Shown: piece by piece, positions 31,266 through 38,160 of the stretch
Numbering within the stretch: position 1 is the stretch's first letter
Layout: each line of letters opens with the position of its first letter
Origin: Flavobacterium sp.
GTDB taxonomy: Bacteria; Bacteroidota; Bacteroidia; Flavobacteriales; Flavobacteriaceae
Reading direction: 5' to 3'
NCBI GenBank assembly: GCA_018883065.1
Contig: VEQT01000005.1
Span: forward strand, 1 to 64,000
Length of the DNA: 64,000 nt
The notes under the pieces: generated by a model
What the model saw: the letters and a program-made list of their open reading frames with translations, nothing else
Told to the model about the DNA's origin: nothing
The model's database searches: none
Translations under genes and position numbers: made by a program

Positions 31266-32159
31266 ATGAAGCATACTTTCATCATTGTGGATGACCAGCC
31301 TGAAAGTATTGAAAATGTGATGGCCATCGCCAGTCATTTTCAGCAGCTGGTTTGTTTGGCCTCGGCCACTACTTATAAAGACGGCTTGAATGCTATTTTG
31401 GAGCACAGCCCGCAGTTGGTATTCTTGGAAATTTCTCCCGATGACAAAAAAAGCAATTTATCCTTGCAACTCATCAACGAATTGCACCGCTTTTTGCGAA
31501 TTGTACCCGAGATCATCGTCATTACCAAGAACAAAGACCTGGCTTTTGAAGCCATGAAATATGAGGTATTGGATTATTTACTTAAACCACTAGACGTAAA
31601 CGAGCTGCGCAAAACGATTTTAAAATACGAGAAGTTTGTATTTGATAATCCGCGACTTTTTACCCAACCCAAAACATCCCGAACGGCGATAGAGGTGGTT
31701 GAGCCTGAGATCATTTCGTCACCGCCTGCTGCAGAATCACCTGATTTACAGAATTTGACTTCAGCCAAAATCATTGAAGCTATACCCGGGATTTCATTAG
31801 CCCAAGAAAAACCCTTGATCATCTGTGTGAAATCCTATGGGGATTACCGTTTTATCGAAGCACGTGACATTTGTTATTTGCAGGCCGACAACAATTCTAC
31901 CGATATTCACCTCAATACAGGCGAGATGATTACCGCCTTCAAAACGCTCAAGCATTTTGAGAGTGTGCTAACCAATCCTTTTGTGCGCATTCACAACAGC
32001 TATATTGTAAATGTTGATTATGTATCACGCATCCACACCGGAAACTCGGTGTGCTACATTAAAAACACCGCTACCAAACTGCCATTTTCCAAGTCTTATA
32101 AGGAAAATATAGATGGAATTATTGCCGCAATTACCAATGGCAATTATTTAGAAATCTAA
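31266..32159 (+). CDS. Orphan LytTR-family response regulator with Asp-to-Glu change at the receiver phospho-acceptor site
   Basis: Receiver FIIVDDQPES...LVFLEISPDD...VITKN...LLKPLD; LytTR domain FIEARDICYLQADNNSTDIHL...FVRIHNSYIVNVDYV. Confidence 0.88.
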   Translation: MKHTFIIVDDQPESIENVMAIASHFQQLVCLASATTYKDGLNAILEHSPQLVFLEISPDDKKSNLSLQLINELHRFLRIVPEIIVITKNKDLAFEAMKYEVLDYLLKPLDVNELRKTILKYEKFVFDNPRLFTQPKTSRTAIEVVEPEIISSPPAAESPDLQNLTSAKIIEAIPGISLAQEKPLIICVKSYGDYRFIEARDICYLQADNNSTDIHLNTGEMITAFKTLKHFESVLTNPFVRIHNSYIVNVDYVSRIHTGNSVCYIKNTATKLPFSKSYKENIDGIIAAITNGNYLEI

Positions 32160-32181
32160 AAAATGCCATCCACTCAAATTT

Positions 32182-32226
32182 GGCTATCATTCACTATCAA
32201 ACGGCCATCATCTACCACAAACGCCC
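32182..32226. promoter_or_regulatory. Phased direct repeats, possible LytTR-type binding sites
   Basis: GGCTATCAT (32182) / GGCCATCAT (32203), 21-bp phasing; CAAACGGCC (32198) / CAAACGCCC (32218), 20-bp phasing. Confidence 0.4.
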
Positions 32227-32268
32227 AAAAACAGTAGATTTCAAGAGACATGCTATATAGTTTTACAC

Positions 32269-32332: not shown

Positions 32333-32590
32333 ATGAAAAAAACAGTATTAACTTTAGGATTGTTCTCATTGATGATGATCCTAACTTCGTTCACTAGCCC
32401 AGAGATTGGGGGACAAGAATCACGAGGAAGTAGAAGAATTGTTGAAATAGGTGGACAAGAATCACGAGGAAGTAGAAGAATTGTTGAAATAGGTGGTCAA
32501 GAATCACGAGGAAGTAGAAGAATATTCGAAATAGGTGGTCAAGAATCACGAGGAAGTAGAAGAATAATTGAAAATGAAATTACACTTTAG
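32333..32590 (+). CDS. Secreted repeat-peptide precursor-like small protein with 4 x 14-aa tandem repeat
   Basis: MKKTVLTLGLFSLMMILTSFTSP signal peptide, then four EIGGQESRGSRRI[VFI] units, then ENEITL; own terminator. Confidence 0.85.
   Translation: MKKTVLTLGLFSLMMILTSFTSPEIGGQESRGSRRIVEIGGQESRGSRRIVEIGGQESRGSRRIFEIGGQESRGSRRIIENEITL
32402..32569 (+). repeat. 4 x 42-bp in-frame tandem repeat
   Basis: Units 32402-32443, 32444-32485, 32486-32527, 32528-32569; core caagaatcacgaggaagtagaagaat identical in all four. Confidence 0.98.
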
Positions 32591-32621: not shown

Positions 32622-32650
32622 GCCCGATAGATATCTATCGGGCTTTTTAT
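32622..32650 (+). terminator. Terminator of the repeat-peptide gene
   Basis: Perfect 22-bp palindrome GCCCGATAGATATCTATCGGGC followed by TTTTTATTT. Confidence 0.85.
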
Positions 32651-32683: not shown

Positions 32684-34714
32684 TTGAAAAGGATATTTTT
32701 TTTCATTTTATTTCTTTCTTCGATTAGTTGTACTAAAAAAAAAGTACAAAAAACTAATTCAATAAATGAATCATTATCACAAATACAGAATGTAATTGAG
32801 TCTGATTCATTATCAAATGACCAAATGAATGATCTTTATAAGAAGTCATTTACAATTATAAAGAATGAAAATTATTCTTCTTCAAATAAACCATTATTAT
32901 TAAAGTCTATTAAGTTCTATTCTGAACAAAGCGATTGGGAAAATTTAAATAATGTAAATAAGTATTTATTAGATAATTCAATTGTTATAAAAGATACTGC
33001 GACAATAGCACTATGTTTTTTTTATTCAGGAGAACGTTGTTATAATAACGATATTTTAGATAGTGCATTCTATTTTTATTCAAAAGCGGAGAAACTTTTA
33101 TCAAAAAATTTGAGTTCCAAAATTCGACCAACTATTTTTTTAAACAAATCCACCATTCAGTTAAATATTAATGACTTCTCTGGTGCAGAATATTATGCAT
33201 CTAAAGCTTTAAAGAGCTATAGAATTGATAGTGATTACCTTGGACAATACGATTCATATACTAACTTAGGGATTGCATCTTTTGGTAAGGAAAATTTTAT
33301 TAAAGCAATTGAATATCATCGTAAAGCATTAGATATTTCAATAAAAAATGATATAAATAAAGATTTTTTTTTAAAGGAAATTTCAAGAAATAATATTGGT
33401 AATTGTTATCAAAATAATGAAGATTATAGAAAAGCAATTGTAGAATTTGAGTTAGCTCTACAGAATAAAAGTTTAGTAACTTTAAAACCTAGTTTGTATG
33501 CTACTCTTATTGACAACGTTGCCTATTCAAAATTTAAAATATCAAACGACCCAGGAACTGTCAAGTTATTTTTAAAATCTTTAAAAATACGTGATAGTTT
33601 GAAATTAACTTCTAGAGTTATTTTGAGTAAGTTGCATTTATCGGAATATTATCTAATTAATTTTGATACTATTACTTCTCAAAAGTATGCAAATGAAGCT
33701 CTCTCGCTTGCAAAACAAACAAATATTCCTAATGATTTACTAACTTCCTTAAAACAATTGTCTTTAGTTGAGCATAAAAATGCAGCGAAATATTCCAAAG
33801 AATACATTAAGATTAGTGACAGCATTCAATTGGAGGAGCGAAAATCTAAGGATAAATTTGCACGGATTGCTTTTGAAACGGATGAAATTATATTAGAAAA
33901 AGACAAATTAGCCGAGCAAAATCGCAGCTTACTTTACTTTTTTGTGGGTACACTATTTGTAGGAGTTTTATTATTTGTGATCCGTACCCAACGGGCCAAA
34001 AATATGGAATTGATTTTAAAACAACAGCAGCAAAAAGCCAATGAGGACATCTATAATTTAATGATTTCTCAACAAGCCACTATAGAAGAAAGTAGAGAAA
34101 AAGAAAAGAAACGCATTGCGCAAGAATTGCATGACGGGGTTTTGGGCAGGTTATTTGGTGCCCGTCTTAATTTAGACAGTTTAAACCGATTTACGGATGA
34201 TGATTCAATTAATAGTCGGTTTAATTACCTTAACGAATTAAAAAACATTGAACAAGATATTCGCGAGATATCACACGACTTGAATCGTGAAAAATATGTT
34301 TTAATCAATAATTTTGTTGCCATTGTAACCAATTTAATTGAAGAACAAAAAAATTCCTTTAGCGCTCAAGTTAATTTTACTATTGATGAAAAAATTAAGT
34401 GGGATCGGGTAGCCAATACCACTAAAATAAATTTGTATCGCATGCTTCAAGAAGCGCTTCAAAACTGCAATAAATATGCAATCGCGACTAGAATTGAAGT
34501 TGTTTTTGAATTAATCCAAGACAGTATTCAATTGACTATTTCAGATAACGGAACCGGTTTTGATGCCAAATCAAAGAAAAAGGGAATTGGATTGCAAAAT
34601 ATGGTTTCTAGAACAAATGAATGCAAAGGAAAATTAGACGTTGATTCGACTAAAGGACTTGGCACAACCATTAAAATTTTAATTCCACTAACTGAAAATA
34701 CCGAGAGCAACTGA
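32684..34714 (+). CDS. TPR-containing sensor histidine kinase (HPK7/HisKA_3 type), paralog 1
   Basis: N-terminal signal sequence (FFFILFLSSISC), TPR-like region, TM LLYFFVGTLFVGVLLFVI, H-box KRIAQELHDGVLGRLFG, N/G boxes EALQNCNKYA and DNGTGF; TTG start. Confidence 0.88.
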   Translation: MKRIFFFILFLSSISCTKKKVQKTNSINESLSQIQNVIESDSLSNDQMNDLYKKSFTIIKNENYSSSNKPLLLKSIKFYSEQSDWENLNNVNKYLLDNSIVIKDTATIALCFFYSGERCYNNDILDSAFYFYSKAEKLLSKNLSSKIRPTIFLNKSTIQLNINDFSGAEYYASKALKSYRIDSDYLGQYDSYTNLGIASFGKENFIKAIEYHRKALDISIKNDINKDFFLKEISRNNIGNCYQNNEDYRKAIVEFELALQNKSLVTLKPSLYATLIDNVAYSKFKISNDPGTVKLFLKSLKIRDSLKLTSRVILSKLHLSEYYLINFDTITSQKYANEALSLAKQTNIPNDLLTSLKQLSLVEHKNAAKYSKEYIKISDSIQLEERKSKDKFARIAFETDEIILEKDKLAEQNRSLLYFFVGTLFVGVLLFVIRTQRAKNMELILKQQQQKANEDIYNLMISQQATIEESREKEKKRIAQELHDGVLGRLFGARLNLDSLNRFTDDDSINSRFNYLNELKNIEQDIREISHDLNREKYVLINNFVAIVTNLIEEQKNSFSAQVNFTIDEKIKWDRVANTTKINLYRMLQEALQNCNKYAIATRIEVVFELIQDSIQLTISDNGTGFDAKSKKKGIGLQNMVSRTNECKGKLDVDSTKGLGTTIKILIPLTENTESN

Positions 34715-35376
34715 TGAGCAAGGAATTACATTTTTTATTTGTAGATGATCACCCCACCATTATTGAGGGGTATAAAAGCATGTTGTATGAGCGATATTCA
34801 ACCGAACAAGTGCACGTGCATGCCGCATTTTCAAGCGAAATGGCCTATGAGAAACTGTTTACTAGCAACCGAGTTTTTGACATAGTTATTTTAGATATAG
34901 GTTTACCTCCTTTTCATGAAAAGCGAATTCAATCAGGAGAGGACCTTGCTTTTTTGATTCAAAAACAGTTCCCTACAACCAAAATTCTCATATCAACTTC
35001 CCACTTAGAGGCATTTATTTTATACAATATTGTAAAAAAAGTAAATCCTGATGGCATGATGATTAAAAGCGATTTTAAATCGTCAGAATTTATTTTGGCA
35101 ATAGAAAAAGTGCTTGCTGGACATCAATATTATAGTCAAACCGTTCGGAATGCAGTTAGAGAAGTGGCCGATCAGCAAGATGCATTGGATGCTATTGATC
35201 GTAGAATTGTATCGTTGCTGTCAAAAGGCATTAAAACCAAAAGTATTCCTTCGCATATAGGCATTTCATTAAGCGCGGTAGACAAACGCAAGGCACAAAT
35301 CAAAGATTTCTTTAATATTGTGAAAGGCACCGATGAAGATATTATTCGTGAAGCGACTAAACGCGGATTGGTGTAA
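34714..35376 (+). CDS. Response regulator, receiver plus NarL/LuxR-like HTH, paralog 1
   Basis: FLFVDDHPTI, VILDIGLPP, MMIKSD; C-terminal LLSKGIKTKSIPSHIGISLSAVDKRKAQIKDFF. Confidence 0.85.
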   Translation: MSKELHFLFVDDHPTIIEGYKSMLYERYSTEQVHVHAAFSSEMAYEKLFTSNRVFDIVILDIGLPPFHEKRIQSGEDLAFLIQKQFPTTKILISTSHLEAFILYNIVKKVNPDGMMIKSDFKSSEFILAIEKVLAGHQYYSQTVRNAVREVADQQDALDAIDRRIVSLLSKGIKTKSIPSHIGISLSAVDKRKAQIKDFFNIVKGTDEDIIREATKRGLV

Positions 35377-35409: not shown

Positions 35410-35460
35410 CCGTTTTGTCTAGAAGCCCATTTACTTTTATGCTAAATAAAACAATTGTGT

Positions 35461-37470
35461 ATGAAATGGAGTAGTGTACTATTGGTGTTCATCTTGTTTT
35501 TTGGCTGCACCTACCGAGAAAAAGAAAATACAAATCATGATAAAATATCCGAATTGTTAGTCAAAGCAACTGACCGTAACCTTAATTATAAAGAGCGTAG
35601 AAATATAAGTTTACAAACATTAAAAATCTTAAATGCCCAAAAGAACGATTCAGTTAATAGAGAACAATTAAATAAGTTATCGTATAATTTTATTGTAATA
35701 AATGATTGGAATAATTTTCTAATATCCAACAAAATAGCATTTGAAAGAGCTTTTAATTCAAGTGATTTAATGCAAATTGGATTGTGTAAAAACTATAAAG
35801 GAATTTATTTTGAAAACATTAGTAATAATGATTCGGCATATTATTACTATTTGAAATCTGAAAAAATATTTAAAAAAATTAATGCTCTTAGAGAATTATG
35901 TTCAGTATATCGAGATAAAGCCCAAGTGCAATTTTACATAAATGATTATCTTGGGAGTGAGGAATCATTGGTAGATGCTTTGAAAATAGCAAATACAAAT
36001 AATTTTGTGATAGATCAATATTTGATTTATACATTTTTAGGAATAAACTCAAACGAACTTGGAGATTATTCCATGTCCTTCAATTATCATTTTAAAGCAA
36101 TAAAGCTCATTGAAAATAATCCTGAGTTATTTGATAACACCGATTTAGCGACTTGCTACAACAATATAGGCTACAACTATTTATCGATTTGCAATTACAG
36201 AAACGCAATTAATTTTTTTGATAAAGGGCTAAGGTTAGATAATATTAAAGTCACTTTTCCATATTTGTATTGTAAGTTAATAGAGAACAAAGTCTATTCA
36301 AAATTGAAACTAAATGATTTTGATAATATAGATTCAGATTTAAATATTACTTTGAAAATCAGAGAAAAATACAATGTTCTCAACGGCAAAAATTTCAACA
36401 GGCTCTACCTGTCCTACTATTATGCCGATATGAATGATCTTCCAAAAGCCAATCAATATGCACAAGAGGCGTTGGCCTTATCCAAAAGTTTCAAAGCTCC
36501 CAAAGACCAACTCTTGTGTTTAAAGCAGCTCATAAAAATTAATCCAGAAAAGGCCTTAGCTTATAGTAGTCAATACATTTCACTTACCGATAGCATGCAA
36601 AAAATGGAACGGCAAACCCGAAATAAATTTGCCAAAATTGCTTTTGAAACCGATGAAATCACAAAAGAAAAAGCAGCTGTCGAGGAGCAATATACCCGTA
36701 TTGTATGGGTGTGTTTAATTATTAGCGTCATTTTAATTTTGTTGTTTGTTATAGGAAAACAACTCCTCAAACAAAAAGAATTTCGCTTGCAGCAAGTGCA
36801 ACAACAAACCAATGTTGAAATTTACAATTTGCTTTTGGCGCAACAAAATAAAATTGATAACGCCCGAAATAGCGAAAAAGAACGCATTTCAAAAGACCTT
36901 CACGATGGGGTGCTCAATCGCTTGGCTTCAACACGCATGAATCTCATCTCGCTTATCAGTGCGCCCACGACAGACAATATAAATAAATCAAAAGGATTGA
37001 TTGAAGGTATACAAGAGGTCGAAAAGGAAATTAGAAACATTTCGCATGATTTAAATAAAGACATTCTTATAAAGTCAGTGAGCTTTGTGAATGTAATTAC
37101 CACCTATATGGAGGAACAGTACGAAGCTACACAAATCAAAAATTTCTTGGAATTTGACTCAAAAATAAACTGGGACCTTATTCCCGGCATGGTAAAAATT
37201 CACTTGTACCGTATTGTGCAAGAATCGATGCAAAATATTGCCAAACATGCACACGCTAGTTCCATCATACTTAGTTTTCTGTCTGTAGAGGGAGGCCTTC
37301 GCCTAGAAATTTTTGACGATGGTGTAGGATTTTTGTTAAACAAAAAGAAAAAAGGAATAGGTTTGCAAAACATTTATAGCCGCACTGCTTCGTGCAATGG
37401 AACGGTAATTATTGAATCAAAAAAAGGGATAGGAACAACAATTAAAGTAGTTGTTCCCTACCAAGACTAG
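35461..37470 (+). CDS. TPR-containing sensor histidine kinase (HPK7/HisKA_3 type), paralog 2
   Basis: Lipobox ILFFGC, TPR-like region, TM IVWVCLIISVILILLFVI, H-box ERISKDLHDGVLNRLAS, ESMQNIAKHAHAS, DDGVGF. Confidence 0.88.
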   Translation: MKWSSVLLVFILFFGCTYREKENTNHDKISELLVKATDRNLNYKERRNISLQTLKILNAQKNDSVNREQLNKLSYNFIVINDWNNFLISNKIAFERAFNSSDLMQIGLCKNYKGIYFENISNNDSAYYYYLKSEKIFKKINALRELCSVYRDKAQVQFYINDYLGSEESLVDALKIANTNNFVIDQYLIYTFLGINSNELGDYSMSFNYHFKAIKLIENNPELFDNTDLATCYNNIGYNYLSICNYRNAINFFDKGLRLDNIKVTFPYLYCKLIENKVYSKLKLNDFDNIDSDLNITLKIREKYNVLNGKNFNRLYLSYYYADMNDLPKANQYAQEALALSKSFKAPKDQLLCLKQLIKINPEKALAYSSQYISLTDSMQKMERQTRNKFAKIAFETDEITKEKAAVEEQYTRIVWVCLIISVILILLFVIGKQLLKQKEFRLQQVQQQTNVEIYNLLLAQQNKIDNARNSEKERISKDLHDGVLNRLASTRMNLISLISAPTTDNINKSKGLIEGIQEVEKEIRNISHDLNKDILIKSVSFVNVITTYMEEQYEATQIKNFLEFDSKINWDLIPGMVKIHLYRIVQESMQNIAKHAHASSIILSFLSVEGGLRLEIFDDGVGFLLNKKKKGIGLQNIYSRTASCNGTVIIESKKGIGTTIKVVVPYQD

Positions 37471-37488
37471 GAAACACAAAATAAAATT

Positions 37489-38160
37489 ATGGCACAATTG
37501 GTTCGTGTATTAATGGTTGATGACCATCCGTTTATTATTGAAGCCTATAAAAACGCCATAAAAGGGTATAATACTAAAGGGGCATACGAGTTTACAATTA
37601 CACAAGCCAAAGATTGCAAAACGGGTTATGAAGCCATTGTCAACGAAGCCAATGCGCAGTACGACATTGCTTTTTTTGATTTGAGCATGCCTATCTACGA
37701 AGAAAAAGGAATTCATTCAGGCGAAGACTTAGCCTTGTTAGTCAAAGAACGCATGCCCGCTTGCAAAATTATTTTGCTGACGATGCACTCCGAGATGCTA
37801 AAAATCAATACCATCATTAAAAACATCAACCCCAACGGGCTTGTGATTAAAAACGATTTGACCTTTGATGAATTGTTGTTGGCTTTTGATAAGATCTTAA
37901 AAGATGAAAATTACTACAGCCAAACCGTAGTAAAATTGGTAAGTCAAATCCAGTTTGACTCAAACGAAATGGATGTGTTTGACAAACAACTGTTGTTTCA
38001 TTTATCAAAAGGAGTGCGTATTGCCGAACTGTCTCAATATGTTCCGTTGGCTCCAGCTGCGATAGAAAAACGACTAACCAATCTTAAAGAGGTACTTGAT
38101 ATGAAGCATGCATCCGATACAGAGCTAGTACAAGAAGCCAAAAACAAAGGAATCATTTAA
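37489..38160 (+). CDS. Response regulator, receiver plus HTH, paralog 2
   Basis: VLMVDDHPFII, IAFFDLSMPIYEEKG, LVIKND, C-terminal HTH-like segment. Confidence 0.85.
   Translation: MAQLVRVLMVDDHPFIIEAYKNAIKGYNTKGAYEFTITQAKDCKTGYEAIVNEANAQYDIAFFDLSMPIYEEKGIHSGEDLALLVKERMPACKIILLTMHSEMLKINTIIKNINPNGLVIKNDLTFDELLLAFDKILKDENYYSQTVVKLVSQIQFDSNEMDVFDKQLLFHLSKGVRIAELSQYVPLAPAAIEKRLTNLKEVLDMKHASDTELVQEAKNKGII

Follow-up and report, generated by a model that had tools for sequence, protein, structure and literature searches.

A multi-copy secreted peptide precursor as the probable ligand source of a neighbouring TPR histidine kinase in Flavobacterium

The top tandem repeat of the window, by which we mean the whole 64-kb stretch of Flavobacterium sp. 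DNA that was analysed, is an array of period 42 (3.9 copies, TRF score 277) lying inside a small gene that is flanked by a LytTR regulator gene and by genes for TPR histidine kinases and response regulators (Table 1). Translation of this gene gives MKKTVLTLGLFSLMMILTSFTSP, two copies of EIGGQESRGSRRIV, one copy each of EIGGQESRGSRRIF and EIGGQESRGSRRII, and the ending ENEITL, and the signal peptide, the four in-frame 14-aa units and the 42-bp tandem organization that a preliminary description had read from the DNA were all borne out. The same applies to its own terminator, as a hairpin with a T-run follows the gene and an equivalent hairpin stands between the peptide and kinase genes in 98/101 homologous loci. 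The export signal, an N-terminal K with a hydrophobic stretch, is found genus-wide, and the length of 85 aa falls within the 10-100 aa range of propeptides; signal peptides and lipoboxes were called from composition and not with SignalP. No family scored above cut-off in Pfam or NCBIfam for the window precursor or for four diverse homologues, and the literature searched gave no match, in agreement with the earlier statement that none of the named families was known to have the repeat. No plasmid relatives were found. The window unit contains neither Trp nor Cys; a synthetic-type peptide taken from it would be IGGQESRGSRRIVE, with, for example, IGGQSAGGNMKLD as the counterpart in another species.

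Table 1. Features of the peptide locus in the window
Feature	Position	Strand	Basis
LytTR response regulator, receiver Asp -> Glu (E55)	31266..32159	+	Pfam Response_reg + LytTR
Three 9-bp direct repeats, 12-bp spacers, candidate LytTR boxes	32165..32215	+	Sequence, upstream alignment
Repeat copy GCCATCCAC	32165-32173	+	Sequence
Repeat copy ATCATTCAC	32186-32194	+	Sequence
Repeat copy ATCATCTAC	32207-32215	+	Sequence
TATAGTTTTAC, candidate promoter -7 element	32256..32266	+	Highly conserved in upstream alignment
Peptide precursor gene, predicted secreted, multi-copy, 85 aa	32333..32590	+	ORF, translation, repeat finding, homologues
Signal peptide region MKKTVLTLGLFSLMMILTSFTSP	32333..32401	+	Conserved across genus Flavobacterium
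Four 42-bp units EIGGQESRGSRRI[V/F/I]	32402..32569	+	Sequence, tandem-repeat analysis
Terminator-like hairpin GCCCGATAGATATCTATCGGGC + T-run	32622..32650	+	Sequence; present in 98/101 loci
HK1, TPR histidine kinase, putative cognate receptor	32684..34714	+	Pfam, conservation, co-divergence
RR1, response regulator, NarL/MctR-like receiver, Asp kept	34714..35376	+	Pfam, NCBIfam, alignment
HK2, second TPR histidine kinase	35455..37470	+	Pfam, ORF
RR2, response regulator	37489..38160	+	Pfam, NCBIfam

Nearly every locus of the genus has the LytTR gene upstream of the peptide gene, and Glu occupies the phospho-acceptor site in 88/90 LytTR homologues, with the acidic pocket and the Lys retained; judged from this pattern, the receiver would be a conserved phospho-mimic or pseudo-receiver. 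Copies of CAYYYAC at 21-bp spacing occur 83 times in 101 upstream regions, where TTTTAC lies mostly 70-77 bp before the ATG. The three 9-bp repeats are conserved, and LytTR direct repeats have the same 9-12-9 arrangement (PMC6193735). On the other side of the peptide gene, HK1 (676 aa) carries a lipobox-like Cys16 that is invariant in 21 sequences, TPRs at about residues 17-412, a TM segment at about 416-433 and HisKA_3/HATPase_c domains; the start codons of the kinases are uncertain, and that of HK1 would be TTG. Because of the lipobox-like Cys, the TPRs and the TM segment at about residue 416, the TPR domain should be periplasmic. Its predicted structure (pLDDT 89.3, pTM 0.85) resembles the peptide receptors Rap, NprR and LGN, the closest solved structures being LGN/Pins, RapJ-CSF, RapI, Rap3T with pheromones, NprR, RapF-PhrF and pLS20 Rap-Phr*, and RapF, RapI and Rap3T were also matched by the HK1 TPR sequence. 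The second pair, HK2-RR2, has no peptide gene of its own.

Homologues of the precursor were found at E<=1 in 246/400 genomes of the same genus, which is Flavobacterium to judge from named relatives such as F. frigoris, F. caeni, F. xanthum, F. flevense and F. fluvii, and the gene is present in 101/101 fetched Flavobacterium loci, many of which derive from MAGs. The gene is therefore not a product of chance, since homologues recur in these genomes and the fetched loci have the same neighbours. Beyond the genus, a search with profile A1 gave only weak, signal-peptide-like matches, and the best full-span match inspected (L105, E 0.013) is an acidic protein whose surroundings are unrelated. The homologues have in common a signal peptide of roughly MKKxILTxGLFSLxMxLTSFT, and the repeat unit behind it varies among species yet is near-identical inside one gene, with examples such as DIIGGQSAGGNMKL, DLVGGASAGGNKKV, IGGGTAGQVTRLTD, TGGKQDPTPTMLTYE (L089) and IGGRSSQGEFA (L125). 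The last two lack any dibasic pair. The RR noted in the preliminary description is present in each window unit, but it is not conserved in the homologues and hence is not a defining feature; a role of it as the processing site is not supported, and dibasic (RR/KR) cleavage was rejected as a general rule. What the homologue units conserve is a core with an I/V-(D)GG... stretch, and the linkers between cores vary in some genes. Constant cores with variable linkers are seen in L054 (core IGGGQTAPR; linkers EKSKQVE, DTRGFAD and ENSRAFE), L133 (core IGGQSAPRS) and L032, and the final copy of an array mostly stops at or close to the core. Drawing the split between core and linker from such irregular arrays in relatives, we infer that the core peptide of the window is IGGQESRGSRR(I).

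Copy number in the homologues ranges from a single unit (F. psychrolimnae L273, F. erciyesense L290 and F. turcicum L296) to about eight (L133), the unit length changes in whole codons, and the array length is about 40-140 aa; one group with large genomes (e.g. L071-L076) has degenerate units and no longer a regular array. Adjacent copies within 73 regular arrays differ far more at synonymous (pS 0.311) than at nonsynonymous sites (pN 0.027), giving a dN/dS of about 0.07, a value biased somewhat downward by the similarity filter with which the codons were picked. Selection retains the peptide, and not the DNA, of the repeats. The 42-bp tandem repeats could in themselves suggest a recombination or regulatory element acting as DNA or RNA, but this codon pattern, the variation of unit length in whole codons and the absence of any Rfam match for the repeats rule it out and leave it practically no probability. 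Gly-rich small tandem repeats are also common in structural and adhesive surface proteins, and the precursor could be a protein of this type that has its neighbours by chance; however, arrays of only about 40-140 aa, the existence of single-copy forms and the co-divergence described below, which singles out one domain of a neighbouring protein, make this account extremely improbable.

Most loci follow the order GlyRS - LytTR regulator - peptide - TPR kinase - NarL-type regulator - ThiL. A TPR/HisKA_3 histidine kinase lies directly downstream on the same strand in the 101 loci wherever this is checkable (L033 and L080 permit no check owing to a contig end or frame break, and the kinase frame of L086 is broken). 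Twenty peptide-negative genomes contain no full-scoring kinase orthologue: their best score is 811 bits, in a genome (G001) that has a divergent 54-aa small peptide of its own, and the next best is 651 bits. In ten genomes with the peptide the scores are 847-1034 bits, and the window genome reaches 970. The early expectation that homologues would vary in copy number and stay linked to TPR kinases agrees with essentially all 101 loci, and the copy range together with this linkage supports the description of the gene as a multi-copy peptide precursor beside TPR kinases. Two MAG records (L245, L256) that bear the names Sphingobacterium thalpophilum and Rhizobium sp. contain a Flavobacterium-type kinase locus, and these contigs are probably mis-binned.

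The locus has no dedicated exporter or protease gene, its conserved neighbourhood holds no immunity, modification or transport gene, and the flanking genes are housekeeping genes. PADLOC returned nothing relevant to defence, and the reading as a defence system was dropped on that result. A secreted bacteriocin or competition peptide, which the kinase would sense for immunity or induction, would also be secreted, polymorphic, repeated and located beside a sensor, but it is very unlikely given the absence of immunity, modification and transport genes from the conserved neighbourhood, the PADLOC result and the housekeeping flanks.

The relation between peptide and kinase was analysed in 90 loci, in which the peptide distance (a best-12-mer BLOSUM measure) was compared with the distances of the TPR region, kinase core, RR, LytTR and GlyRS. 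With GlyRS, kinase core, RR and LytTR removed, the partial correlation between peptide and TPR was r=0.379 (0/200 permutations), the corresponding values for the kinase core, RR, LytTR and GlyRS were about zero, and with ComF as an extra control the peptide-TPR value was r=0.399. In 45 disjoint nearest (sister) pairs, which limit phylogenetic non-independence, the peptide-TPR partial correlation rose to r=0.827 (0/5000 permutations), and the kinase core, RR and GlyRS showed no association with the peptide. The divergence of the precursor's own signal peptide does not track the TPR (r=-0.14). An artefact of fast-evolving genes was tested with ComF, LytTR, RR, GlyRS, kinase core and signal peptide and was rejected, with LytTR leaving a weaker residual association in the sister-pair test (r=0.395, p=0.006). 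Four sister-species pairs (L139/L088, L161/L156, L058/L051 and L064/L040) display the same relation along the DNA, the identity being 0.84-0.97 in GlyRS, LytTR, promoter and signal peptide, dropping to about 0.5-0.8 over the repeats and the TPR, and returning to about 0.9-0.99 from the kinase TM onward. By this pattern, the repeats and the TPR region look like a cassette that sets specificity and is exchanged as one piece, comparable to ComQXPA or agr. The peptide-tracking sites cluster in the central TPRs (HK residues 151-275) and are commoner in the concave helices A than in helices B (p=0.001). The signalling role put forward at first reading is supported by this TPR-specific co-divergence and by the cassette pattern.

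Related TPR kinases elsewhere also have genes for small, predicted secreted proteins in front of them. The best-matching kinases outside the genus but within the family have such a protein of ~50-60 aa before them in 27/27 loci, and paralogous Flavobacterium kinases have one upstream in 11/13 cases, compared with 46/411 control ORFs; these counts come from a detector that listed a spurious ORF for L214 and L227, where a fitting candidate is present. The adjacent proteins of the other genera are mostly lipoprotein-like with a variable tail, and full-length matches to the kinase profile occurred only within the same family among 150 genomes drawn across the phylum. From the pairs in other genera, we infer that small peptide and TPR kinase form a general module, in which the Flavobacterium peptide would be a multiplied form without lipidation. 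Repeat-amplified small secreted proteins before TPR kinases were also seen in other genera (L221, L227, L233 and L320), where multiplication is apparently independent, and the repeats of other genera include TDGDDTPTDDRQS x5 and ETLACDDCAHDSDDR x6. In L317 (G281:C19), one TPR kinase is preceded by three tandem small secreted peptides, two of them nearly identical. The third TPR kinase of the window genome (L332, G000:C66:37000-43000) has upstream a 52-aa lipoprotein-like protein, MKPNFLVKLFLLTIVCVSLNSCTLDELISNPTAQTDTSPIAKDGEPRLTNPK, which is a candidate second peptide channel.

The product of the precursor gene is probably the source of a peptide ligand for the neighbouring kinase HK1 within a polymorphic signalling system, as the comparison of loci suggests. 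The pairing of ligand and receptor is well supported, and intercellular release and copy-by-copy processing are less certain. The precursor would be exported via its signal peptide, and the tandem cores (IGGQESRGSRR) would be cut apart by an envelope or extracellular protease to give several identical peptides. TPR-specific co-divergence and the fold point to the concave groove of the periplasmic HK1 TPR as the probable binding site of the peptide, and HK1, once bound, would act on the NarL-type response regulator; the LytTR regulator, on the 9-12-9 direct repeats, probably drives transcription of the peptide gene. Peptide and TPR would change jointly as a specificity cassette, and species or lineages would therefore have private pherotypes.

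The strongest competing account is a CpxP-like accessory regulator in the periplasm, which would bind the TPR and tune or inhibit the kinase but would be neither cut nor released. An accessory protein confined to the periplasm would give the same linkage and the same co-divergence with the TPR, apart from the pherotype-like diversification, and the locus has no dedicated exporter or protease gene, which also counts against a peptide signal. In addition, action between cells would need the peptide to cross the outer membrane twice, the small proteins beside the kinases of other genera are mostly lipoprotein-like and could remain anchored, and the weaker LytTR association in the sister pairs is a further point against the ligand reading. 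However, it is not obvious why an internal partner should diverge so strongly between sister species or carry one to eight identical cores with variable linkers under selection, and we consider this rival unlikely. The best reading is a peptide-ligand system that is RRNPP-like in its receptor fold but periplasmic, and the simplest account would be a ligand-receptor pair diversifying as a cassette, like ComQXPA and agr. On balance, we also lean towards the view that the Flavobacteriaceae possess an undescribed class of peptide signalling between cells, in which hypervariable small secreted peptides, single or in tandem copies, are each read by their own periplasmic TPR kinase, with pherotype switching by cassette exchange. 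Such a class would be the Gram-negative equivalent of RRNPP and agr signalling, and one genome would hold several channels side by side.

In Gram-positive bacteria, peptide pheromones that are sensed by receptor kinases or TPR proteins are textbook knowledge. Our literature search, outside which lay most subscription papers and preprints, found no report of a peptide pheromone with a receptor kinase or TPR protein in Flavobacterium or Bacteroidota. If the ligand-receptor reading is true, a large, ecologically important Gram-negative family would have a private peptide language. The many natural pherotypes would then offer material on specificity, cheating and kin recognition, and a large number of orphan TPR sensor kinases would at once gain a candidate ligand in the peptide encoded beside them.

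Among known systems, RRNPP (Rap-Phr, NprR-NprX, PlcR-PapR and arbitrium-type Rap) is similar in that a small Sec-type propeptide gene adjoins a TPR receptor gene, the TPR fold matches RapI, RapJ-CSF, Rap3T and NprR, and the peptide is hypervariable. By the criteria of a survey of Firmicutes and their mobile elements (PMC10075063), the locus has a 10-100 aa propeptide with an export signal, adjacency and a TPR receptor fold, but differs in receptor size and location: the RRNPP receptor has 250-500 aa and is intracellular, whereas the receptor here would be a 676-aa lipobox/TM kinase with a periplasmic TPR. The several tandem copies and the Gram-negative Bacteroidota host are further differences. 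ComQXPA and agr are similar in that the ligand varies jointly with the sensor half, against a conserved kinase core, promoter and regulator, the variable parts in the former being the ComX C-terminus and the ComP N-terminus (PMC4008528). The conserved neighbours, however, include no ComQ isoprenyl transferase and no AgrB processing enzyme, the window unit has neither the Trp of ComX nor a Cys, agr peptides being cyclic thiolactones or lactones, and the sensor would be a soluble TPR ectodomain instead of a polytopic membrane domain. In agr a LytTR regulator acts on direct repeats before the peptide gene; here a LytTR gene and 9-12-9 repeats are candidates for such a pair, the receiver has Glu for Asp, and the placing of this Glu-site LytTR upstream of the peptide, with a NarL-type regulator after the kinase, is unlike ComQXPA and agr. 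Membership thus fails on receptor size and location for RRNPP, on ComQ for ComQXPA and on AgrB for agr. Yeast alpha-factor and neuropeptide precursors consist of a signal sequence followed by tandem short peptide copies with variable spacers, and the multi-copy precursor, which has this layout, would be a bacterial parallel to alpha-factor, although it has no conserved dibasic site and no homology to them. FimS-type TPR kinases of Bacteroidota have the same TPR-plus-kinase architecture, but HK2 matches NCBIfam FimS only weakly, at 27 of 600 bits and far under the family cutoff, and we know of no peptide partner for that kinase family. By analogy, the system would operate in the manner of agr, ComQXPA and Rap-Phr, with components unrelated to theirs and with hosts from a Gram-negative phylum.
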